From Verrucomicrobiota bacterium (GTDB lineage: Bacteria > Verrucomicrobiota > Verrucomicrobiia > Chthoniobacterales > Terrimicrobiaceae): 32,605 nt of DNA. The notes under the pieces were generated by a model, which was not told the origin of the DNA, made no database searches, and saw nothing but the letters and a program-made list of their open reading frames with translations. Made by a program: the position numbers and the translations under genes. The stretch spans positions 1 to 32,605 of the forward strand of contig VFJO01000023.1 of assembly GCA_009886045.1 (NCBI GenBank). Direction: 5' to 3'. Each line of letters begins with the position of its first letter. The stretch's first letter is position 1. Below are positions 19,584-32,348 of the stretch, piece by piece.

Positions 19584-19961
19584 CTACTCAAATCCCATGC
19601 CTAAGCAGTCGAGCATTTTGGTTGTAAGATCCTTCTCGAAAAACGGCTTCGTCATGTAAGCCGTGGCTCCGGCCTTGATGGCTGAGATAATGGCATCCTT
19701 GCTGCCTTCCGTGGTGAGCATGAGAACGGGGAGTGGTTTCCAGCGTTCGTCGGCGCGGATGCACTTGAGAAATTCGAGCCCATTCATGTTCGGCATATTC
19801 CAGTCGAGGCAAACGAGGGAGAAGCCTGTCGGATCCGCTTCGAGCACGCCGAGTGCTATGTGGCCGTCCTCTGCGGGGACGCATTCGGCACCGATAACCG
19901 ATGCGGCAGACGCTACTATGCGTCGGATAAGCATGGAATCATCAACAGCTAAGACTTTCAT
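19584..19961 (-). CDS. cheY: Single-domain response regulator (CheY-like)
   Basis: 'MKVLAVDDSMLIRRIVASAA', 'LVCLDWNMPNMNGLEFL', 'MLTTEG', 'YMTKPF'. ORF track start 20009; ATG at 19961 preferred. Confidence 0.9.
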   Translation of the reverse strand: MKVLAVDDSMLIRRIVASAASVIGAECVPAEDGHIALGVLEADPTGFSLVCLDWNMPNMNGLEFLKCIRADERWKPLPVLMLTTEGSKDAIISAIKAGATAYMTKPFFEKDLTTKMLDCLGMGFE

Positions 19962-20035
19962 ATTTTGGGGAGGGAGTCTGAAACATAGTATTTTGAATAC
20001 AACATGCAATACGAATTCATAACAGTCGAATCCAA

Positions 20036-21130
20036 TTAAGTTCCCAAAGTCTGGATAATGAGCGAATGCCAGCCGGTTGAATAAGTCTCATAGCCAGGGG
20101 CTGTCGCTATCGCGAAGAGGGTGGGAATGCCGTGGTCTTCGGCGATGGTGAAGCCCTTTCCTTGGAGGATGAAAGATTCGAGGTGTGAAATGTTTACACG
20201 GTCTTTCAGGATGGCATTTTTTGAGTCAGCCAAGATTGTTCCCGAGGGGTCTATTATGCAAACTCTTGAGACTTCTTTTTCGGACTGCGAGAGGGGCGTG
20301 CGGTGCACGATTGTTTGGGCGAGCGCCTCCCAGTTGAAGAGAATGCCCAAGACGCCAATCAATTCCCCATTGGGCTGTCCGTCACGCCGGACTCCGCAAG
20401 AGTAGGCCAGGATGTGCTGTCCTTGGACTAATGGGGAGGCATGGACTGTTTCGAAGCCGAAATCATCACCGCTTGCAGAGGTGCGGGCTTTGCGGAACCA
20501 CTCGTTGGCCGCCACATTCATGCCGATGGACTTGTATTTTCCTGAGCGGCCGTTTGCTATGACGGTTCCGTTGAGATCACACAACACGATGTCATAATAA
20601 ACGGTGTAGGCGTTCAGGATGACTCCCAAGCGGTCACAGGTGTGGCGGGATGAGTCGGTGCCAGGGAATGCGAGGGCATTTACCGCACTGGCATCTGTAG
20701 CCCACCAGCGGACGTCGCAGGAGCGTTCGTAGAGGTTGCGGTCTATGAGATCAATGTTGGTGAGAGCGAGATCAACAAGTCGCCCGCCGCGCACAACCGA
20801 GTCTAGGCGGTCGCTGATTTCGGAGAGCTGCTTGATGTCATTCTTGGTTTCCTCTGCAAGCCCCTCCGCGACCTGTGCGGTGTTGGTGGAGAGGTTGCCG
20901 ATTTCATTGGCAACCACGGCGAAGGTGCGCCCTGCGTCGCCGGCTTTGGCAGCTTGAATCTGCGCGTTGAAGGACAAAAGACGAACACGCATATTGATGT
21001 CGTCGATTTGCCTCAGTGAGTTGTTCATCTTGCTGGAGATGCTCTTAGAGAGGTGGCGGATGCTTTCGATCCAATTATCGAAGGAATCGGTTTTTGACGG
21101 GTTGGAAGGTTGGATTTGTTGAGTTGCCAT
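20036..21130 (-). CDS. Soluble chemoreceptor-like protein: N-terminal short MCP signalling hairpin plus C-terminal Cache-like sensor
   Basis: 364 aa; 'INMRVRLLSFNAQIQAAKAGDAGRTFAVVANEIGNLS' (MCP tip) at residues about 45-80, then 'IDRNLYERSCDVRWWA...YDIVLCDLNGTVIANGRSG...NEWFRKA...' (Cache-like); no TM segment seen. Confidence 0.8.
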   Translation of the reverse strand: MATQQIQPSNPSKTDSFDNWIESIRHLSKSISSKMNNSLRQIDDINMRVRLLSFNAQIQAAKAGDAGRTFAVVANEIGNLSTNTAQVAEGLAEETKNDIKQLSEISDRLDSVVRGGRLVDLALTNIDLIDRNLYERSCDVRWWATDASAVNALAFPGTDSSRHTCDRLGVILNAYTVYYDIVLCDLNGTVIANGRSGKYKSIGMNVAANEWFRKARTSASGDDFGFETVHASPLVQGQHILAYSCGVRRDGQPNGELIGVLGILFNWEALAQTIVHRTPLSQSEKEVSRVCIIDPSGTILADSKNAILKDRVNISHLESFILQGKGFTIAEDHGIPTLFAIATAPGYETYSTGWHSLIIQTLGT

Positions 21131-21160: not shown

Positions 21161-22012
21161 TTATTTCCTTTTGTAAAAAAATGACCCGGATACATTTTCC
21201 GACGAGAAGAGATGCTGATGCGTGAAGAGGGATTCTGTTCCACCAAGCATGAGGTGTCCATTAGGTAAAATGACTTGCGCGAGTCGATTAAAGAGGTCTT
21301 TTTTAAAATCCTCCTTGAAGTAAATGGCGACATTCCTGCAAAGCACTAAATCGAAGAGGCCGAGATTCGAGAGATCGTCTTGGAGGTTTCTTTTTTTGAA
21401 AGTGACCATCGATCGAATCTCAGGCTTCAATGTCCAAGTATTTCCGAGCGTGGAGTCAAAGAAGTTGGTCTTCCAATAATCCGGGAGGCCGCGCGAGATT
21501 TCGAGTTGGCTGTAACGACCAGCGGATGCCAAAAAAAGCGTTCCCGGGGAGATGTCGAAGCCGGTAATTTCAAAAGAAGAGAGGTTCACCCCGTCCAACA
21601 TGCCTGAGGACTTCAGTTTATGAAGGAGGAGGGCGATGGAGTAGGGCTCTTGGCCTGTGGAGCAGGCAGCGCTTAGGATACGAATGCGAGATTTTTTACC
21701 GCTTTGAAGAAGTTTTCCTAGTTCTGGAAGAATAGCATTTTCCAGTGATTCCCAAGGGCGCGTGTCGCGAAACCAGTAGGTCTCGTGGGTGGTCATGGAG
21801 TCGATGATTTTGTCGCGCAGGCGGCCTGTGGCTTCCGCTTTCGCCATGCGTATGAAATCCGGAATATCTACGGCTCCGCTTTCGGCGATGATTTTGCCAA
21901 GGCGCGCCTCAAAGAGGTAGCGTTTTTCTTCGCCTAAGTGGATGCAGCAAGCTTGCGCAACATATTGCGAGAGAATTCCCAAATCGTTTGGGTTTTTAGA
22001 GAAATCAAACAT
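21161..22012 (-). CDS. cheR: Chemotaxis protein methyltransferase CheR
   Basis: 283 aa; 'MTTHETYWFRDTRPWESL', 'ILSAACSTGQEPYSIALLL', 'LVLCRNVAIYFKEDFKKDLFNRLAQVILPNGHLMLGGTESL'. Confidence 0.95.
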   Translation of the reverse strand: MFDFSKNPNDLGILSQYVAQACCIHLGEEKRYLFEARLGKIIAESGAVDIPDFIRMAKAEATGRLRDKIIDSMTTHETYWFRDTRPWESLENAILPELGKLLQSGKKSRIRILSAACSTGQEPYSIALLLHKLKSSGMLDGVNLSSFEITGFDISPGTLFLASAGRYSQLEISRGLPDYWKTNFFDSTLGNTWTLKPEIRSMVTFKKRNLQDDLSNLGLFDLVLCRNVAIYFKEDFKKDLFNRLAQVILPNGHLMLGGTESLFTHQHLFSSENVSGSFFYKRK

Positions 22013-22040: not shown

Positions 22041-23099
22041 TTAAAGTCTGAAAAGTTTATTAATGCGGGGCCCGATTTCTTGAAGTGGCAAGATTTCGTC
22101 GCTTAAATTTCTCTGAGCAACGGCTTGAGGCATTCCGTAAACTGTGGATGTTGATGCATCCTGAGCGATGCACCATGTGGGCAATGCGTGTTGCAAGGTT
22201 GCTACTCCATCGGCTCCATCACAACCCATCCCTGTGAGAATAATAGCAATAGCGCCGCGAAGGTTGCATTTGGCGGCAGAATTAAAAAGCACATCCACCG
22301 AAGGGCGGCAAGATTGCACGTGTGGGCTGCTGGTGAGGCGGGTTTGAATTTTTCCTGCATCGTTGCGAAAGATTTCCAAATGGAAACCTCCCGGAGCTAT
22401 GTGGGCCTCGCCTGGCATTGGGATTTCGCCATTGATCGCTTCTTTGATGGAAAGACTGCTGATCTTGTCCAACTGCTCGGCCAAGGACTTGGTGAACGTG
22501 GCGGGCATGTGCTGCACCAGAAGGATGGGAACGGGGAGTTTGGGCGAAATGATTGGTAAAATGGTGGACAGGGCATTTGGCCCGCCGGTTGAGACGCCGA
22601 TGAGGATCAACTCGGGAAATGGCGGTGGTTGGAGGCGTTTGATCGGTGCCTTTGCAGTTTGGGTGCTTGGCTTGGGAGCCACGTGCAAGGCGGAAGCCGA
22701 TGCGCCGCGAAGGCGGGCCAATGTGGACACCCTTCGAATATCTGCTTTAAGAGCCTCCATTCCAGACTCAAATGAAGAGCTCGAGGGTTTCGAAATGAAA
22801 TCCATCGCTCCGTGAGCCAGACAGCCGACCGTAATTTCGGCATCTCGACCCGTGGCACCACTCACCATAACCACGGATAACTGAGGGTGTGCGACCTTGA
22901 GTTTCTCGAGCGTTTGCGGTCCGCTCAGTTGATTCATGAAAACATCCAGCAGAACGAGATCGAATTTTTCGGATTCCAGCCGCTTAAGTGCGAGCTCGCC
23001 GCTTGAAACGGCTACGGTTTCGCCTCCCGGAACGCTCGAAGCGGCGTCCGAGAGGAGTTTCCGATAAAGTGCTGAATCGTCAACGATGAGAATTCGCAT
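22041..23099 (-). CDS. cheB: Chemotaxis response regulator protein-glutamate methylesterase CheB
   Basis: 352 aa; REC 'ILIVDDSALYRKLL...LVLLDVFM', esterase 'IGVSTGGPNALSTILP', 'LVQHMPATFTKSLAEQLD', 'ILTGMGCDGADG'. Confidence 0.95.
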   Translation of the reverse strand: MRILIVDDSALYRKLLSDAASSVPGGETVAVSSGELALKRLESEKFDLVLLDVFMNQLSGPQTLEKLKVAHPQLSVVMVSGATGRDAEITVGCLAHGAMDFISKPSSSSFESGMEALKADIRRVSTLARLRGASASALHVAPKPSTQTAKAPIKRLQPPPFPELILIGVSTGGPNALSTILPIISPKLPVPILLVQHMPATFTKSLAEQLDKISSLSIKEAINGEIPMPGEAHIAPGGFHLEIFRNDAGKIQTRLTSSPHVQSCRPSVDVLFNSAAKCNLRGAIAIILTGMGCDGADGVATLQHALPTWCIAQDASTSTVYGMPQAVAQRNLSDEILPLQEIGPRINKLFRL

Positions 23100-23114: not shown

Positions 23115-25201
23115 TTACAACTTGAAGCGATTTACGAGTTGCCCGAGGGAACCGGCAAGGTGGCTGAGTTCCCCTGCGCTGGAGCTGATGCGCGAGGCTC
23201 CTTTGGCGGATTCGCTGGCGGCTTGGGAGACGCCGTTGATGTTTCGCGAGACTTCATCCGCGCCGGCAGAGGCGTTCTTCACGTTTTCAGACAGGCTCTT
23301 TGTGGAAGATGTGGCATTGTGCAGCGAACGAACGATTTCCGATGTGGTGGCGGATTGTTCTTCGACAGCTGCCGCGATGCTGGAAGCGATCTGGCTGACT
23401 TGTTCGATGACCTTGGCCACATCATCAATCGCCTCCATGGAGTTCGAGGTATTTTCTTGGATGAGGCTGACTTGGAGACGGATGTCCTGAGTTGCTGCCG
23501 CGGACTGGCGGGCGAGTTCCTTGACCTCGTTGGCCACAACGGCAAATCCGCGACCGGCATCGCCGGCGCTGGCGGCTTCGATGGTCGCATTGAGCGCCAA
23601 GAGGTTTGTTTGCTCGGCGATTTGGTTGATGAGTTCCACGATTTTTCCGATCTGGCGCGCCGAATCGTCGAGCTTGATCATGAGTTCGCGTGTTTGGCGG
23701 GCTTGTGAATCCGCCTTGCGAGCGATTTCAGATTCTTGCGTGCAGTTGCGAGCGACCTCTTGGATGGATGAGGACATTTCCTCGACGGCGGCAGCTACGG
23801 TCGTTGCGGCTTGACTGATCTCGCCGGCGGAGGCTGTCATAGATTTGGAATTGATAGCAAGCTCTTCTCCTGCAGCGGCAACTGTATGGGCTTGAACATT
23901 CGTTTGTTCTGCACCTGCAGCTTGTGAATTGGCGGTCTCGGTAAGGATCGACGCGGATTCTGTCAACGCTTCGGATGTATGGGTGATTTCCTGCACCATC
24001 TTACGAAGGTTCTCGATGCAAGTATCCACCGAGTTGGCCAGAACGCCCACCTCATCACCGCGCTTGAGTTTGACGCCGCCACTCAAGTCGCCATCGGCCA
24101 GTTTTTTTACGGCTTGGGCACATGCCACGATCGGTTTGCTGATCGATCGACCGATGATCACTGCAGCTAAAAACATGAAAATAACAGCACAGGCCGATAT
24201 GGCCCAAGTTATTTCCACCACACGCTTAAGCAAATCCTGCTCATGGACGCTTACAAGAACATGCCAGTTGGGGTTCGGATATCCTAAAACGCCCTTGCTT
24301 GTGGCTGCTCCGTAAACAGTCCATTCTTTTTGTGGGTCGTATCAAATTCTCTGCCTATGGCGGCTGACTTGGAAAGAATGTCCTTGGCAGCTTCTCTTCC
24401 TTCGGCAACCAAGTTTTCGGTGAGAATGATCTTGGAATCGGTTACAAAATCTTCGCTTCCTGTAGCGGATGGGTCCAGTTTGCCGAGGACAAGACCGTGT
24501 TCGTTCAGGAGTGTGATCTCAGTGGATAAGATTCCACTTTCTTTCATTTGATTGTATGGTTTGTGTAAGATACTTTCGACGAAGGTCATATCCGCAAAAT
24601 TCCTCCAGACTCCCAAGAATTCTCCATTTTTTCCTGTGATTGGCGCAGCGAACCCGATGGTTTCGAAATCTGTGCCGAGGAGTTTATTCAAATCGAGGTC
24701 TCGAGCTGGTTGGCTTACGACGGTGCCAGTGAGCGTATCCGATGCCGTGAAACGACCTTGTTTGGCATTGATAAACCACTCCGTGCCAGAAAAATCTTTA
24801 CCCATAAGGTAGTTGGAGTCGATTGCTTTTCCTAAAGCATCCAACGAATTCACAGCGACAACCTTGCCCTGTGCGTCAAGGATGAGGCTGATCGGGTAGC
24901 ACCCATAAAGCTTCACATAGGTATTGATGGCTTCTGTAAGGGAAGAGGCGTCCACTTCTTCACCGTTTAGAAAATTTTTGGCCACTGGGTTTGAGGCAAA
25001 GGCTTGCACGTCGCCGTAGCGTTCGAAGAGGTTTCTCTCGATGATCTCAATCGAGGCATCCGCATGGGCCAGAAGTTGTTTCTTTGAAAATTCGGCGATA
25101 CGGTTGGCGGAGTTGAGGCCGAAGATGGTCAGCGCCATCACTGGAATAAGGCCACCTATTGCCATACTGATGACGAGTCGCGTGGAGAGGTTGATTTTCA
25201 T
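23115..25201 (-). pseudogene. Membrane methyl-accepting chemotaxis protein (dCache-TM-HAMP-MA), split into two ORFs by a single-nt frame disruption
   Basis: ORF 25201-24284 (TM + Cache sensor) ends '...[20 protein letters not shown]'. Shifting by -1 at CAC AAA AAG (plus-strand T5 at 24327-24331) gives '...[51 protein letters not shown]', which continues into the HAMP + MA ORF (24233-23115). Confidence 0.85.
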
Positions 25202-25207
25202 GGTATT

Positions 25208-27976
25208 TTAATTGGTGAGAGTTGCTGGAGCGTTGGCGTTTGGTAGCTGGGTAATGTGGTGCTGGGAATGACCTGGTTTCTGCGAGTTAGCCGTGAGCAT
25301 GAAATGGCCTTGTGCGAATACGGATGTCTCGTCTCCGCCAGCAGTGAGCATTTCCGCGATGGCGTCGAAATCAAGGACCAGTGAAAGGCGATCTGAGAGG
25401 ACTGCGCTACCCTTGAGCCCTCTGGCCTTGAAGGTGGCTCTGTCGATCTGGTCATCCGAGAGGTCGGCGGAGTCGACGATACGGGAGGCGACGAGGCACA
25501 ATCCATCGAATGGTGGCCGTGGCACAATGAGGAAGAATTCGTCTCCGCGTTGGGTCTGCGGCTTGATGGGAAGAAGATCCGAGAGTTGGACCAATCGCAG
25601 GGTGGAGTCGTGGTTCTTTCGGAGGCAATCCATCGAGCCGATGCGCTCGATGTCGGAGGCCTTGACGGATTCGACACGCATGACTTTTTTGAGGTGGATG
25701 GCGAGGAATTCGCCATTGGTTTCCTGAAAAATAAGCACACGCTCGGAAGTGGATTCAGAAAGAGCGGCTTCGTTTGATTTTGAGGCGTTCTGAGCCAATT
25801 GAGAGGCTGAAATCCTGCCTTGAGCCATGGAATTCGGATCTAATATCACTGCTATTTCACCCTGACCTAATATCGTGGCTCCTGTATAATATGAAACTGA
25901 GCGAAGATGGCGGCCGAGAGGTTTCACCACGATTTCCTCGTTGCTAATAATTTCATTAACGATCAGTCCGTAGGAGACATGGTCCAATCTCAGAACGACC
26001 ACGAAGTTTTCTTGTTTGGTATTCTCCCTAGGAGGGTGGCCCAAAAGGTCGGAGAGATCCACGACTGGAAGGAGTTGTCCTCGCAGCTCAAGAACTCGCG
26101 CACCGCCCATGGATTTGAGCGGGTATTCTTCTCCAGGGTGGACAATTTCATCCACATTGATCTGAGGCAGTGCGTAGGTGGTGCCCCGGCAGCCGACGAT
26201 CAGGGCCGGAACGATCGCGAGCGTCAACGGGAGACGAATAATGATGCGGGTGCCTTGACCCAAGCGGCTCTCGAGTTCCACATGGCCGCCGAGTTTCTCG
26301 ATGTTGGTCTTCACCACATCCATGCCCACGCCTCGTCCGGAGATGTCGCTCACTGCCTCAGCCGTTGAAAAACCCGCGGCGAAGATCAGTTGGAGTGCGT
26401 CAGAGTCCGTCATCTGGGACGCCTGCTCGGTGGTGATGACGCCTTTTTCTACGGCTTTAGCTTTGAGTCGCTCGGGATCCATGCCGCCGCCGTCGTCGAG
26501 GACTTCGATTTGGACACGTCCGGCGAGGTGCGCGGCCGAGAGGCGAATGGTTCCGCAGGAAGTTTTGCCCTTGGCGATGCGGTTTGCGGGAATCTCAATG
26601 CCGTGATCGACGCTGTTTCTCACAAGGTGGGTGAGCGGATCCGAGAGGCCTTCCAGAAGCGTGCGGTCGAGCTCCACATCATCACCAAAAATCTCAAGCT
26701 GGATTTGCTTGTCCAGCTTGTGGCTCAAATCTCGCACAATGCGTGTGAATTTCCCAAAAAGGCTGCCCACTGGCTGCAATCGGGCGCGCATGATTGTGTC
26801 TTGGAGATTGGAAGTGACCGAGCTGATCTCCTGCACCACGGACTGCATCTGCGAGTTGTCGGACCCTGTGTCCGAGCGCCCAGCGATTCGCAGCAAGCGG
26901 TTGCGGCCGAGGACCATTTCGCCCGCCAGGTTCATGAGCGAGTCAAGAAGGCCGACACTGATTCGAATGGTTTCTTCGGGTTTGCGCTTGGCGGCTGCTA
27001 CGGGCTTGGGATCAATCTGGGTGGCTGTGGGCTCCGCAGGTTTAGTCGCGATGGTGGGAACCGTCGGCGACGTCGGCACGATGCTTTGAGATACGACAGC
27101 CTCTGGAGGCTTTTCCTCAATCTCTTGTGGCTCGTGCACAATAGGAGCCATGTTTTGAGCTGGAGCGGTTTTCACCCATTCGCCAAGCTTGGAAGAGTCG
27201 ATCTGGTGGATGTTCTCATCTCCAAGGCCAAGTGCGCCACAGAGAATAAATGGCTCCAAGGCCGTTACAAAAAAGAAGCGGCAAGAGACATCGGCAGCTG
27301 CACAGTTGGAGAGAGTGACATGATCCGGTAGTGAGGCTTCTGTGCCTATGAGCGTGCCGAGAGATGCTAACTCTGATACAAAGTTCTCAAGCGTTTGTGA
27401 TTGCGACTCGATTTCTTTGGCCAATTCTGCCTGTACGATGTAGAAGTTTTGGCCATGCTTCAGCCCATCCAAAAGATCGTCCGGATGAAAATTAAATCTC
27501 GCAAGTTCCTTGTCAAAAACGGAATCTGATTTTATTTTCGTATTTTTTGCGGGAGGTTTTTCGCCTCCTTTTCTGGCAGAGGGTGTGGTTCCTGAGGAGG
27601 TGCCGTCAAGAATGGCTTTGAGGCCCGCAATCTCGCCTTCGCAGGCGATTTCTATGGCCCGCTCTGGATTGACGAGCATGAGGTTCAGTTTGTCCGAGGT
27701 CGAGATGAGCAGGCTGACCATGGGTTGGTCTGCTTTGAGGACGGCATCTCTCAGGAGTGACATCACGCTCTCCATCACATGGGCCAGCTTGACGATGGGG
27801 TCGAAGCCAAAGAATCCAGCGCCGCCCTTGATGCTGTGAACAGATCGGAAAATGCTGTTCAGTAGGGCGTTGTCTGTTGGATTCGACTCCAGCGCCATCA
27901 AATCTGTCTCAAGTGTCTGCAAGTGTTCGCTCGACTCTTGGACAAACAGATCGAGCATTTCTTGGTCTGCACTCAT
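25208..27976 (-). CDS. cheA: Chemotaxis histidine kinase CheA with a second C-terminal CheW-like module
   Basis: 922 aa; Hpt 'SVHSIKGGAGFFGF', N-box 'LTHLVRNSVDHGIE', G-boxes 'LDDGGGMD' and 'GRGVGMDVVKTNIEKLGG', CheW-like P5, then another CheW-like stretch 'RVLIFQETNGEFLAIHLKKVMRVESV...'. Confidence 0.95.
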   Translation of the reverse strand: MSADQEMLDLFVQESSEHLQTLETDLMALESNPTDNALLNSIFRSVHSIKGGAGFFGFDPIVKLAHVMESVMSLLRDAVLKADQPMVSLLISTSDKLNLMLVNPERAIEIACEGEIAGLKAILDGTSSGTTPSARKGGEKPPAKNTKIKSDSVFDKELARFNFHPDDLLDGLKHGQNFYIVQAELAKEIESQSQTLENFVSELASLGTLIGTEASLPDHVTLSNCAAADVSCRFFFVTALEPFILCGALGLGDENIHQIDSSKLGEWVKTAPAQNMAPIVHEPQEIEEKPPEAVVSQSIVPTSPTVPTIATKPAEPTATQIDPKPVAAAKRKPEETIRISVGLLDSLMNLAGEMVLGRNRLLRIAGRSDTGSDNSQMQSVVQEISSVTSNLQDTIMRARLQPVGSLFGKFTRIVRDLSHKLDKQIQLEIFGDDVELDRTLLEGLSDPLTHLVRNSVDHGIEIPANRIAKGKTSCGTIRLSAAHLAGRVQIEVLDDGGGMDPERLKAKAVEKGVITTEQASQMTDSDALQLIFAAGFSTAEAVSDISGRGVGMDVVKTNIEKLGGHVELESRLGQGTRIIIRLPLTLAIVPALIVGCRGTTYALPQINVDEIVHPGEEYPLKSMGGARVLELRGQLLPVVDLSDLLGHPPRENTKQENFVVVLRLDHVSYGLIVNEIISNEEIVVKPLGRHLRSVSYYTGATILGQGEIAVILDPNSMAQGRISASQLAQNASKSNEAALSESTSERVLIFQETNGEFLAIHLKKVMRVESVKASDIERIGSMDCLRKNHDSTLRLVQLSDLLPIKPQTQRGDEFFLIVPRPPFDGLCLVASRIVDSADLSDDQIDRATFKARGLKGSAVLSDRLSLVLDFDAIAEMLTAGGDETSVFAQGHFMLTANSQKPGHSQHHITQLPNANAPATLTN

Positions 27977-28290
27977 TCGGCGTCCTCCTGGGTGATAATC
28001 GACATGCGGCGTTGAAGGTGGAATAAGTTCAGAAATTGTTTAGCCTCCTCCGAGGCTTGGATTTTAAGGTTGAGACCACGAGTTTGGCATTCTTGAGCGA
28101 GGGCCAGAAGAATTTTCACTGTTCCCGAGTCGAATGCAGAAGTCTGGGAGAGGTCGATTTCCACCGACTTTGCTGCGTCAGCCTTTTGCAAGGCCTTTTC
28201 AAGCTGTGCGGCGGCCGTTTCGACTGTGGAAGTGTTCAACTCAAGACCGGGTGTGATTTTGAAGTCCCCTTTTTGGTTCGTCGTTTTCAT
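27973..28290 (-). CDS. STAS-domain protein (anti-sigma-factor-antagonist-like)
   Basis: 105 aa; 'SVEIDLSQTSAFDSGTVKILLALAQECQTRGLNLKI' matches the STAS core with a potential phospho-Ser in 'FDSG'. 4-nt overlap with cheA. Confidence 0.8.
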   Translation of the reverse strand: MKTTNQKGDFKITPGLELNTSTVETAAAQLEKALQKADAAKSVEIDLSQTSAFDSGTVKILLALAQECQTRGLNLKIQASEEAKQFLNLFHLQRRMSIITQEDAE

Positions 28291-28832
28291 ACCGCGGGGC
28301 TTTTCTTCAATTCCAACATGGAGACAAGGTTGCCGATTTGCAGCACGGTCGTGAGGCTATCTTGTGAGCTGATGACTCCGGCGATAAATCGGGTGTCCAA
28401 GCCGCTGAGTGCCTCGGGTGGTGCTGGCAGAACGCGTGTTTCGGGCGGCAGGATATCACCAATCGCATCGACCAGTAGCCCTGTGGGATCTGAGTCCGCC
28501 AGCTCATGGTCTTCCGGTGGGCGGGGAAGGCGAACGAGATCGTTCGTCGTCTTAAAAACGATGCAGCGGCTCGCAGGGCGTGGCTCAGAAACGGGGTGGC
28601 CGAGGCGCGCTTCAAGGTCAAAGGCCGTCAAAATCTGACCGCGCAGGTGGACGACGCCTCGAATATAGGATGAGGCCAGCTTGACGGGAGTGACGGCTGG
28701 GCAACGCAGGACTTCTTTAACCCATAGGAGATCACAGGCGTATTGCCGACCGCAAGAAGTGAAGCCCAGCCACTGGGACTCTCTGGCTGGGTGATCTGCT
28801 TTTGCGAGGCTAAGGTTCACTTGAAGAGACAA
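28287..28832 (-). CDS. cheW: Chemotaxis adaptor CheW
   Basis: 181 aa; 'WLGFTSCGRQYACDLLWVKEVLRCPAVTPVKLASSYIRGVVHLRGQILTAFDLEARLG'. Confidence 0.92.
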   Translation of the reverse strand: MSLQVNLSLAKADHPARESQWLGFTSCGRQYACDLLWVKEVLRCPAVTPVKLASSYIRGVVHLRGQILTAFDLEARLGHPVSEPRPASRCIVFKTTNDLVRLPRPPEDHELADSDPTGLLVDAIGDILPPETRVLPAPPEALSGLDTRFIAGVISSQDSLTTVLQIGNLVSMLELKKSPAV

Positions 28833-28844
28833 AAGGTTGCTTTG

Positions 28845-30068
28845 TTAAAATGCCTTTTTTGCGGCATCGTGATTTGGGAAAACATCGAGTGTTTTCGAGC
28901 CTTCAAATGGATTCTTAATATCTTTAAAAGCAGCGATTTTCTGATTGCTCGCCATCAGTGAGGGCAAGGGGAAAATATCATCATCCGAACCGACTATGCG
29001 CCAAGTGATATCCAGCGCTGTCGCCTCCACAAGAATGCATGCAATGGCACGGAGCAATGGAACTTCAAACTTTTTAACTCCAGTGAGATCCATGATGAGT
29101 TTGTCTTGTCCCGAGTTGACGAGGCCGGAAAGCCTGGAGCGGGAGTAGCGAACAAGGTCGAGTGACCCGATTTCACTCAAATCCTCTGGAATAGTCACAA
29201 CCTGAAAATCTTCGTCCATGCTGTAGTATAGCGGGGTGTTGTCCAAGTCCATGGCGCGGACTAATCGGTCTGGAAGTTCTTTCAGGTCGAGAGGTTTTGT
29301 GATGCTACCGACGAAACCTGTATCTTTGGCGCTATTTTGCTCAAATGTAGCAGTCTTCACGCAAAGGCCCATTACAGGAACGCCTCTCAAGGTTGGGTTG
29401 GAGCGAATCGTTCCATAAAACGTGAGGGCTGCGTTATGTGGAAAAGCCAAGCTCACCAAGATGATGTCTGGCGTATTTTCCGGAGCCAAGGTGCTGGCGA
29501 CATGCGCGGCCGCTTCCGCAGGGCTCGCACAACCAATGACTTCCCACCCGCGATTTGAAACCGCCTTTTTGATGGATTCGATAATGGCTGGGAATTCTTC
29601 AACAACTAAGATCTTGATCACTTCGGTGACGCTTTTGACTTTTTTCCCGGTGGTTTGACAGGGCGTCGATTGCGCACTGGCTGCCGAGCCCTTGTGTTTC
29701 AGGTCCACCAGGCGCGAGACGCGATCAATGACGTTGGCCTCGGTGAAAGGCTTCACAATGTAGTCGCGCACGCCCATCTTTGCGATTTTGAGAACGTTTT
29801 CTTTGCCGGCCTCTGCTGTGAGCATGATAACGGGAATGTCCTTGAGCGATGGATCGGCTTTCAGCTTTCCAAGGCACTCCACGCCGTCCATTACCGGCAT
29901 CGTGACGTCCAAAAGAATCACATCGGGCTTGACTCTTGCGGCAGCCTCTAGGCCTTCAACTCCATCACTGGCGAAAAACATTTCCACGTCATAGGACGCG
30001 AAGCCCTTGTTGATAAGGGTATGAATCATTCGACTGTCGTCGATGCTAAGGATTTTTGGTGAGCTCAT
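28845..30068 (-). CDS. Multi-domain regulator: REC - pseudo-REC - STAS-like
   Basis: 407 aa; REC1 'LSIDDSRM...ILLDVTMPVMDG...MLTA...IVKPF'; second REC-like 'KILVVEEFPAIIESI...IILVSLAFP...SITKPLD' lacking the phospho-Asp; C-terminal 'FQVVTIPEDLSEIGSLDLVRYSRSRLSGLVNSGQDKLIMDLTGVKKFEVPLLRAIACILVEATALDITWRIVG'. Confidence 0.75.
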   Translation of the reverse strand: MSSPKILSIDDSRMIHTLINKGFASYDVEMFFASDGVEGLEAAARVKPDVILLDVTMPVMDGVECLGKLKADPSLKDIPVIMLTAEAGKENVLKIAKMGVRDYIVKPFTEANVIDRVSRLVDLKHKGSAASAQSTPCQTTGKKVKSVTEVIKILVVEEFPAIIESIKKAVSNRGWEVIGCASPAEAAAHVASTLAPENTPDIILVSLAFPHNAALTFYGTIRSNPTLRGVPVMGLCVKTATFEQNSAKDTGFVGSITKPLDLKELPDRLVRAMDLDNTPLYYSMDEDFQVVTIPEDLSEIGSLDLVRYSRSRLSGLVNSGQDKLIMDLTGVKKFEVPLLRAIACILVEATALDITWRIVGSDDDIFPLPSLMASNQKIAAFKDIKNPFEGSKTLDVFPNHDAAKKAF

Positions 30069-30080
30069 TTGTATAAAAAA

Positions 30081-30572
30081 TTACTGTTCTAACGCTGCAA
30101 AGACTTGGACAATCAAAGTGTCGGAGCAACCTTCAATTACATAAGTGTTGCTCACGCTGATGGATGCGTTTTTTGCTGATACTGTAATATCATCTCCCCT
30201 CATGACGCTTGGAATGCTAAGGGCGCAATTGAAGCCGAGGTCGCAAAGACGGGACTTCAGGTTGCCAGTGACCATGTTTGTAAGCTCTGCAACGACATCG
30301 GCCACATCTTGATCGCTTGGGCTACCGCCGAGGATTTTTTCAGCCACTATCTTGGCAAGTTTTTCCGTAAAAGCCGTGTAAACTATCCCATTGACTTTCC
30401 CGCTGAGTCCGATGGAGCCTGTCACTCCAGATAGCGTGGAAGGTTGGGGCGCATGTGCGTTTCCCGCTTCTGGTGTGGCGGAAATGCCTGCCATTGTTTG
30501 CATAACTTCTGGAACGTACAGATTGATTGTTTCCAAAATGAGTTCGCTGCTCGGGGTGTTGGAATCGGACAT
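30081..30572 (-). CDS. cheX: CheX-like CheY-P phosphatase
   Basis: 163 aa; 'DVADVVAELTNMVTGNLKSRL' carries the CheC/CheX/FliY ExxN motif (ELTN) in the usual helix context. Confidence 0.8.
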   Translation of the reverse strand: MSDSNTPSSELILETINLYVPEVMQTMAGISATPEAGNAHAPQPSTLSGVTGSIGLSGKVNGIVYTAFTEKLAKIVAEKILGGSPSDQDVADVVAELTNMVTGNLKSRLCDLGFNCALSIPSVMRGDDITVSAKNASISVSNTYVIEGCSDTLIVQVFAALEQ

Positions 30573-30668
30573 AGTGGGATAGGGTTTAATGTGAGGGTTT
30601 TTTTAAGAAAAATCGCAGAAAGGCCTTTGACCGCGAGCGACCAAATCAATCAAAGCGCTCCGCATGGG

Positions 30669-32348
30669 TCAACTTCCAATTTCAACCTTTGGTTCAGTTG
30701 GAGGCTGCAGGCTCTCTAGTTTGAGTGTGATGGTCGGACGGTCGCAGACTTCGGCTGGGCCGAAGTATTGGATCGGGCCGGGGAAGGCGTATTGGGTTTC
30801 CTCAGCCCAGGCGGCGCGGTGTTTTTCAAATTCCTTGAAGGCAGGTCCGTCAAGCTCGACAAGGGCTTTTTTGATAACGGGAACCATTTTTCCATGTCGG
30901 CGTTCCAGGTTCATCATTTGAGCCATGGGGATGCCGCCTGCTTGCCAGTCGGCGGCGGGTTTTGTGAGGCCGCGAACTGAGCAGATGTACCCTGTCAGGC
31001 CTTCGCGGAGGAGGAGAGCTGCTGTAAAGCCGAGGGTGTAAGTGTAGTCGGCATCGAAGTTTGATGGCACGGCGCAGCGGCCTTCGTATCCGAAATAATG
31101 GGGTTGTGGCGAGAAGCTGGCTTTGTAGGTGCCGGCGGCCTTCATTTCTTTCAGACGCGCCTCGACGAGGTCGATGAGGAGGCGCTGGGTGTCGATGCGG
31201 GCGACTTGCACGTTGCCGTGGGGGTCGCGATCGAGGATGAGCTGGTTCGCGATATCACCCGGCAGGCTGCGGTATAGCGAGGCGGCGGCGGGTGTCAGCT
31301 TGGCAGCCACAAATTCGCGCTTTTGCGGGAGGGTTTCGAGGGCATTGAAGGCGTCGCCGTGGTGCGCGAGGGCGTCGTTGAGCTCGCCGATGAGCGCTCC
31401 CATCTCAGGTACGAATTCGATGAGTCCTTCAGGGATCAGGACCGTGCCAAATTTTTCACCCTTGGCGGCGCGCTGGCAAACGGTGAGGGCGATTTGCTCA
31501 ACGATCTGCTTCAGCGTGGGTCCGCGCTCGGCGACTTCTTCTGAGATGAGCGTGATGTTCGGATGCGTCTGCAGGGCACATTCCAACGCGATATGCGAGG
31601 CCGAGCGGCCCATGAGCTTGATGAAGTGCCAGTACTTGCGGGCTGAGATGGCATCGCGCTGGATGTTCCCGATGAGGTCGGAGTAAACCTTGCTCGCCGT
31701 GTCGAATCCGAAGCTCGTTTCGATGTACTCGCCGCGCAGGTCGCCATCAATCGTCTTGGGAACCCCGACCACGCAGAGTGGGGCATTGTTCGCCTTTGCA
31801 AACTCGGCGAGCTTTGAGGCATTCGAATTCGAATCATCGCCACCAATCACCACCAGCGCGGTAAGATTGCGGGTTTTTGCGGTTTCTAGAGCTTTTAAAA
31901 AATCCTCGTGCGACTCGAGTTTTGTGCGGCCAGAGCCGATGATATCGAACCCGCCGGTATTGCGGTAACTCTCGAGGAGCTGGGTGTCGATTTTGATGGC
32001 TTTGTTCGTAAGAAGGCCGTCCGGGCCATTCAGGAAGCCGATAAGCGAGCTTTCGGCATGGATGCTTTTGATTGCGTCGAATAGCCCTGCGATAACATTG
32101 TGGCCGCCGGGGGCTGGACCGCCGGAGAGGATCACTCCAACACGGATGGGTGTAGACGATGCTGTCGGCGCGCCGGCCTCAAAGCTCACCGCTGGCAGGT
32201 CAAAGGTATTTGGAAAGAGGGCGCGGATTTCGATGTCGCCTGATGTCGGTATGGGAGATTTTTTAGCAGCGGATGTCGCGCTGAGCGAGGCTGGGAGCTT
32301 CGGTTGGTAAGTGGAGCGGGCTTGTGCGAGTGCGGTTTGCTGGATCAT
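30669..32348 (-). CDS. Pyrophosphate-dependent phosphofructokinase (long PfpB-like type)
   Basis: Own ATG at 32348 ('MIQQTALAQARSTYQPKLP'); 'VILSGGPAPGGHNVIAGLFDAI', 'GGDDSNSNA' (PPi-type Asp), 'VGVPKTIDGDL', 'LMGRSASHIALE'. The open frame continues upstream to the window edge. Confidence 0.9.
   Translation of the reverse strand: MIQQTALAQARSTYQPKLPASLSATSAAKKSPIPTSGDIEIRALFPNTFDLPAVSFEAGAPTASSTPIRVGVILSGGPAPGGHNVIAGLFDAIKSIHAESSLIGFLNGPDGLLTNKAIKIDTQLLESYRNTGGFDIIGSGRTKLESHEDFLKALETAKTRNLTALVVIGGDDSNSNASKLAEFAKANNAPLCVVGVPKTIDGDLRGEYIETSFGFDTASKVYSDLIGNIQRDAISARKYWHFIKLMGRSASHIALECALQTHPNITLISEEVAERGPTLKQIVEQIALTVCQRAAKGEKFGTVLIPEGLIEFVPEMGALIGELNDALAHHGDAFNALETLPQKREFVAAKLTPAAASLYRSLPGDIANQLILDRDPHGNVQVARIDTQRLLIDLVEARLKEMKAAGTYKASFSPQPHYFGYEGRCAVPSNFDADYTYTLGFTAALLLREGLTGYICSVRGLTKPAADWQAGGIPMAQMMNLERRHGKMVPVIKKALVELDGPAFKEFEKHRAAWAEETQYAFPGPIQYFGPAEVCDRPTITLKLESLQPPTEPKVEIGS

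Follow-up and report, generated by a model that had tools for sequence, protein, structure and literature searches.

In PleD, phosphorylation alters the contacts between the first receiver (REC1) and the pseudo-receiver, leading to dimerisation (PMC12632262). Among STAS proteins studied by experiment in chemotaxis, CheS is the nearest precedent. CheS is reported to bind CheA, to tighten the binding of the sink receiver CheY1 100-fold and to sharpen the response, with a rise of the Hill coefficient from 3.4 to 7.6 (PMC4214558; PMC12654446). According to one survey, 93% of the genomes whose single CheA carries a receiver domain are without CheC/CheX/CheZ phosphatases (PMC10782961).

The window analysed here is a 32,605-nucleotide stretch of DNA from a Verrucomicrobiota bacterium of the Terrimicrobiaceae (contig VFJO01000023.1, assembly GCA_009886045.1). 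It encodes a response regulator that combines a receiver, a pseudo-receiver and a STAS domain, and that probably tunes how the signal of the chemotaxis kinase is shared out.

Domain states of the regulator

The open reading frame at 28845-30068 on the minus strand, whose coordinates are correct, has an ATG start and encodes 407 amino acids. The original prediction described its product as a REC-pseudoREC-STAS protein with a complete first receiver, a second receiver carrying Ser in place of the phospho-Asp, and a STAS output of the non-phosphorylatable type. These readings were borne out by an alignment of 40 homologues, obtained from a genome scan and whole-genome searches, together with family Pfam matches and a model of the STAS fold. 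All full-length homologues recovered in these searches fall within Verrucomicrobiota. The features of the regulator are listed below.

28845..30068, minus strand: REC-pseudoREC-STAS response regulator, 407 aa (homologue alignment, family Pfam matches, structure models)
29703..30068, minus strand: REC1, complete receiver, residues 1-122, phospho-acceptor D54 (PF00072; active-site quintet in 40/40)
29907..29909, minus strand: codon of D54, the predicted phosphorylation site (D in 40/40)
29247..29621, minus strand: REC2, pseudo-receiver, residues 150-274 (PF00072, 39 bits; beta-alpha fold in model; PleD-like arrangement)
29451..29453, minus strand: codon of S206, which replaces the phospho-Asp of REC2 (S in 39/40, N in 1/40)
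28848..29222, minus strand: STAS domain of the non-phosphorylatable type, residues 283-407 (family Pfam matches, AlphaFold2 model, Foldseek)
29058..29066, minus strand: codons of E335-V336-P337, in place of the STAS D-S-S/G phospho-motif (column 336 V/I/M/L in 39/40, T in 1)

The active-site quintet of REC1 (D10, D11, D54, T84 and K106) is kept in every one of the 40 homologues, and Y103 in 39/40. REC2 is still recognised as a receiver by Pfam and retains K258 in 40/40 homologues; it is classed as a pseudo-receiver because the phospho-Asp is absent, the corresponding column holding Ser in 39 homologues and Asn in one. In the column of the conserved switch Thr, most homologues have C, S, A or V, and K-3 shows no conserved aromatic residue in the 40-homologue alignment. 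The criteria of a pseudo-receiver review (PMC12632262), applied to this alignment, place REC2 among the pseudo-receivers that lack the Y-T switch. The acidic pair of REC2, originally singled out as EE, is indeed EE in the window protein but varies among the homologues (24 E and 16 D at position 157; 28 D and 12 E at position 158), and it is the Asp-to-Ser change that defines REC2.

The C-terminus of the window protein alone gave no Pfam STAS match, and the STAS assignment therefore needed homologues and fold. Isolated homologous C-termini matched PF01740 in 36/40 cases (E<=0.1; best 1.7e-6) and STAS_2 in 18/40 (best 2.7e-7), and 12 of the 18 full-length homologues matched STAS. An AlphaFold2 model of residues 277-407, built on the alignment of the 40 C-termini, reached a pLDDT of 88.6 and a pTM of 0.84. 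Foldseek returned STAS proteins throughout the 50 matches listed for this model, including anti-sigma antagonists (SpoIIAA, RsbV), stressosome RsbS/RsbR, SLC26/SulP transporters and MlaB; eight of the 50 had E below 0.001 (TM1081, a Dyadobacter STAS protein, RsbS). The expectation that the C-terminus would score and model as STAS thus held for the family and for the fold. An insertion of about 15-18 residues, present in the window's genus after the strand ending in RIVG, may be why the window protein misses the Pfam model.

The 'FEVPLL' stretch occupies the position of the D-S-S/G motif of STAS proteins. E, D or H predominate in column 335; the phospho-Ser column, 336, holds V, I, M or L in 39/40 homologues and Thr in 1/40, never Ser. 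On this alignment, the STAS domain of the regulator falls outside the phosphorylatable anti-sigma antagonists of the SpoIIAA/RsbV type. Comparison with the closest relative indicated purifying selection on REC1, REC2 and STAS (omega 0.05, 0.08 and 0.11, respectively), with a looser linker (omega 0.26).

PleD was the top PDB sequence match, over profile positions 3-283 (E 2.5e-34), and the top Foldseek match of the full regulator model. The NCBI PleD model aligned in 18/18 members, the window protein scoring 104 of 474 bits, below the curated cut-off. Against plasmid-collection proteins, the REC2-STAS part gave only ordinary receiver matches; two of the best plasmid-collection matches were an OmpR-type regulator and a regulator with REC and a DNA-binding-type domain. 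No sigma-70 promoter-like site was found in 28700-30800.

Chemotaxis operon and distribution

The regulator shares one chemotaxis operon with both CheA and CheX, a context that the original prediction had guessed. The genes follow one another on the minus strand, between 30572 and 19584, as CheX, regulator, CheW, small STAS protein, CheA, receptor, CheB, CheR, receptor-like protein and CheY. The neighbours of the regulator are given below.

30081..30572, minus strand: CheX phosphatase, heading the operon and lying upstream of the regulator by 12 bases, with the catalytic motif ExxN as ELTN (PF13690, 6e-21)
28287..28832, minus strand: CheW coupling protein (PF01584)
27973..28290, minus strand: small protein consisting of STAS alone, its D-S-G motif intact (AFDSGT) (PF13466, PF01740; sequence)
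25208..27976, minus strand: CheA kinase with Hpt, dimerisation and ATPase domains and two CheW stretches (Pfam)
24284..25201, minus strand: first half (dCache part) of a receptor in a frame-shifted gene (Pfam; one 694-aa ORF in a relative)
23115..24233, minus strand: second half of that receptor, with HAMP and the MCP signalling domain (Pfam)
22041..23099, minus strand: CheB methylesterase (Pfam)
21161..22012, minus strand: CheR methyltransferase (Pfam)
20036..21130, minus strand: receptor-like protein, MCP tip N-terminal and dCache C-terminal (Pfam)
19584..19961, minus strand: CheY, stand-alone receiver with a DWNMPNMNG motif (from the first Met of a longer ORF, 19584-20009)

The genes are closely spaced. 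Twelve bases separate the regulator from CheX on one side and from CheW on the other, the small STAS frame overlaps the cheW and cheA frames by 4 bases each, and the spacings CheA-receptor, receptor-CheB, CheB-CheR and CheR-receptor-like are 6, 15, 28 and 30 bases. The widest gap, 74 bases, lies between the receptor-like gene and CheY. The stretch 30572-19584 holds a complete chemotaxis operon, CheY included. The catalytic ExxN of CheX is kept in 21/21 CheX neighbours of the regulator. The regulator as the only response regulator of the cluster was ruled out by the CheY at 19584-19961.

The receptor gene following cheA (23115-25201, minus strand) is split into two frames near 24234-24290, and a relative (locus L095) has a single 694-aa ORF; BLASTN against this locus placed a 2-base difference near the break, which may be a real lesion or an assembly error. 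The receptor-like protein at 20036-21130 showed no obvious membrane segment when its sequence was read. Among the loci read, a small D-S-G STAS protein between cheW and cheA, and thus beside cheA, was seen only in the window's genus; this protein is possibly a counterpart of CheS or the target of an RsbW-like kinase encoded elsewhere in the genome. Contig C12 of the same genome (locus L096) carries a cluster in partner-switching style with a STAS protein, a 701-aa sensor-like protein, an RsbW-like ATPase, a REC-containing protein and a single receiver. Contig C214 (locus L097) carries a second chemosensory fragment with CheR, CheB, a receiver resembling CheY (48% identity with REC1) and a protein with REC and a probable cyclase domain. 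No second CheA was found in the genome's own assembly, the one at 25208-27976 being the only CheA found.

In a phylum sample of 388 Verrucomicrobiota genomes, with presence called at E<=1e-40, the regulator was present in 24, and all 24 also have CheA and FliG. It was found in none of the eight same-class genomes of this sample with only CheA (G028, G074, G346) or only FliG (G103, G114, G263, G276, G400; the FliG of G263 being a weak match). The regulator is a feature of class Verrucomicrobiae, as 15 genomes outside the class with both CheA and FliG are without it. In a closer sample the rule mostly held, with the exceptions of G026 and G046, two genomes of the same order that carry CheA and FliG and are without the regulator. 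G026 is also without CheX. G046 keeps CheX, which at locus L123 adjoins a single-domain receiver 43% identical to REC1, possibly a simpler form ancestral to the fusion.

Three congeners of the window organism have FliG and are without CheA. In G013 (locus L102), REC1 ends in a stop, remnants of REC2 lie in other frames and CheX is intact; in G015 (locus L120), the regulator is gone and only a CheX remnant is left; G005 has neither. The CheX/regulator module, decayed or gone in these genomes, thus decays when CheA is lost.

CheX lies directly upstream of the regulator in nearly all loci examined, which span several families. In one family the regulator, flanked by CheX and CheA, heads a run of flagellar genes, with the succession CheX, regulator, CheA and FlgB, then FliF, FliG, FliH, FliI and FliJ in G281, and in Opitutaceae the CheX/regulator pair is often found beside a sigma-54 type regulator and flagellar genes, not CheA. 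The regulator thus occurs in nearly all flagellated, CheA-carrying members of class Verrucomicrobiae. From the operon, the CheX pairing and the co-occurrence with CheA and FliG, it is therefore taken as a core flagellar-chemotaxis part of this class. A non-flagellar ('alternative') chemosensory role was rejected on the co-occurrence with FliG and the linkage to flagellar genes.

Candidate roles in the chemotaxis pathway

In the mechanism that we infer, CheA would phosphorylate REC1, with D54 as the predicted site, and CheX would remove the phosphate. The unphosphorylatable REC2 would serve as a PleD-like rigid adaptor against which phosphorylated REC1 packs, and the STAS domain would be a constitutive protein-binding module docking the regulator on the CheA/CheW complex. 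REC1, once docked, would compete with CheY for phosphate and be drained by CheX. Regulator and CheX together would then form a phosphate sink or threshold device, comparable with Sinorhizobium CheY1 and CheS, but in one chain. The regulator need not be the motor signal because a separate, bona fide CheY is encoded in the operon.

A CheA-fed, STAS-docked phosphate sink or threshold device, acting with CheX in the flagellar chemotaxis of class Verrucomicrobiae, is the reading that we tentatively prefer over an output branch, a CheV-like scaffold and a motor ligand. With more reserve, we suggest that a sink receiver and a kinase-docking STAS partner, which alphaproteobacteria make as separate proteins, may here form one chain through a pseudo-receiver and be serviced by a dedicated CheX, as a threshold device built in class-wide. 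Several points count against a sink. A third domain is not usually required for a sink, the substrate of CheX could be CheY and not the regulator, and the regulator is missing from G026 and G046 although both carry CheA and FliG. Moreover, CheX is nearly always present here, unlike the pattern in the survey (PMC10782961).

A PleD-like switch is possible, if somewhat doubtful: phosphorylated REC1 would pack on REC2 and the protein would dimerise, allowing STAS to bind something else than CheA (for instance an enzyme, a partner-switching kinase or a flagellar regulator) as a second output branch of CheA. The REC1-REC2 layout matches that of PleD, which dimerises on phosphorylation, the genome also holds a cluster of RsbW-like ATPase, REC protein and STAS protein, and the frequent position of the Opitutaceae pair away from CheA is in line with such a branch. 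However, no candidate target travels with the regulator gene except CheX, and the fact that CheA and FliG strictly accompany the regulator speaks more for a function within the chemotaxis complex.

The coupling domain of CheV is tuned by a receiver. By this precedent, the STAS domain could be part of the receptor array, with CheA activity tuned by whether REC1 is phosphorylated, making the regulator an array scaffold or adaptation modulator; its location between CheX and CheW-CheA in the window's genus would fit. We consider this unlikely, as the STAS domain is not a coupling domain of the CheW type and a separate CheW is present. Less likely again is a substitute for CheY in which FliM is bound by phosphorylated REC1 itself, with access controlled by the other domains: REC1 is CheY-like, with Y103 in 39/40 homologues, and the N-terminal peptide of the FliM of the window genome is similar to the CheY-binding motif, but a typical CheY is encoded in the same operon. 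That the C-terminus is not STAS, or that the gene is decaying, is very improbable given the family STAS matches, the fold match and the purifying selection on each domain, despite the missing Pfam STAS match of the window protein itself.

Comparison with known systems

The domains of the regulator and its receiver/pseudo-receiver layout are known; its STAS output is unusual and lies in a conserved, apparently unstudied setting. The original prediction did not recognise the architecture as standard, which applies to the output and not to the N-terminal two thirds, where the order of receiver, pseudo-receiver and output is that of PleD. The architecture proved widespread in class Verrucomicrobiae, and no published description or characterisation of a receiver-STAS architecture was found in the open-access literature. 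In the same literature, chemotaxis signalling in Verrucomicrobiae appears unstudied. With its conservation, its link to CheA and flagella, its phosphatase partner and an output of undescribed kind, the regulator represents a testable second branch of the pathway.

The fold of the C-terminal domain is shared with the stressosome STAS proteins RsbS/RsbR, whereas the regulator has no phosphorylatable Ser, is fused to receivers and is found in a chemotaxis context. As in the CheX/CheY pairs of Thermotoga, Borrelia and Treponema, a CheX with conserved ExxN adjoins a CheY-like receiver; here, however, the receiver bears two extra domains.

With CheY1 and CheS of Sinorhizobium/Agrobacterium, the locus has in common one CheA, a CheY, and a second receiver and STAS protein in one chemotaxis system. 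There the two are separate proteins, whereas the regulator holds receiver and STAS in one chain with a pseudo-receiver between them, and CheX is present. Among the loci read, the window's genus alone has a small STAS protein as a separate gene product.

Caulobacter PleD, the best match in both sequence and fold over residues 3-283, likewise pairs a phosphorylatable REC1 with an unphosphorylatable REC2. Its output is GGDEF (diguanylate cyclase), whereas that of the regulator is STAS, and the regulator is paired with CheX and CheA. In the regulator, the receiver/pseudo-receiver principle known from PleD would thereby serve a protein-binding output in place of an enzyme.
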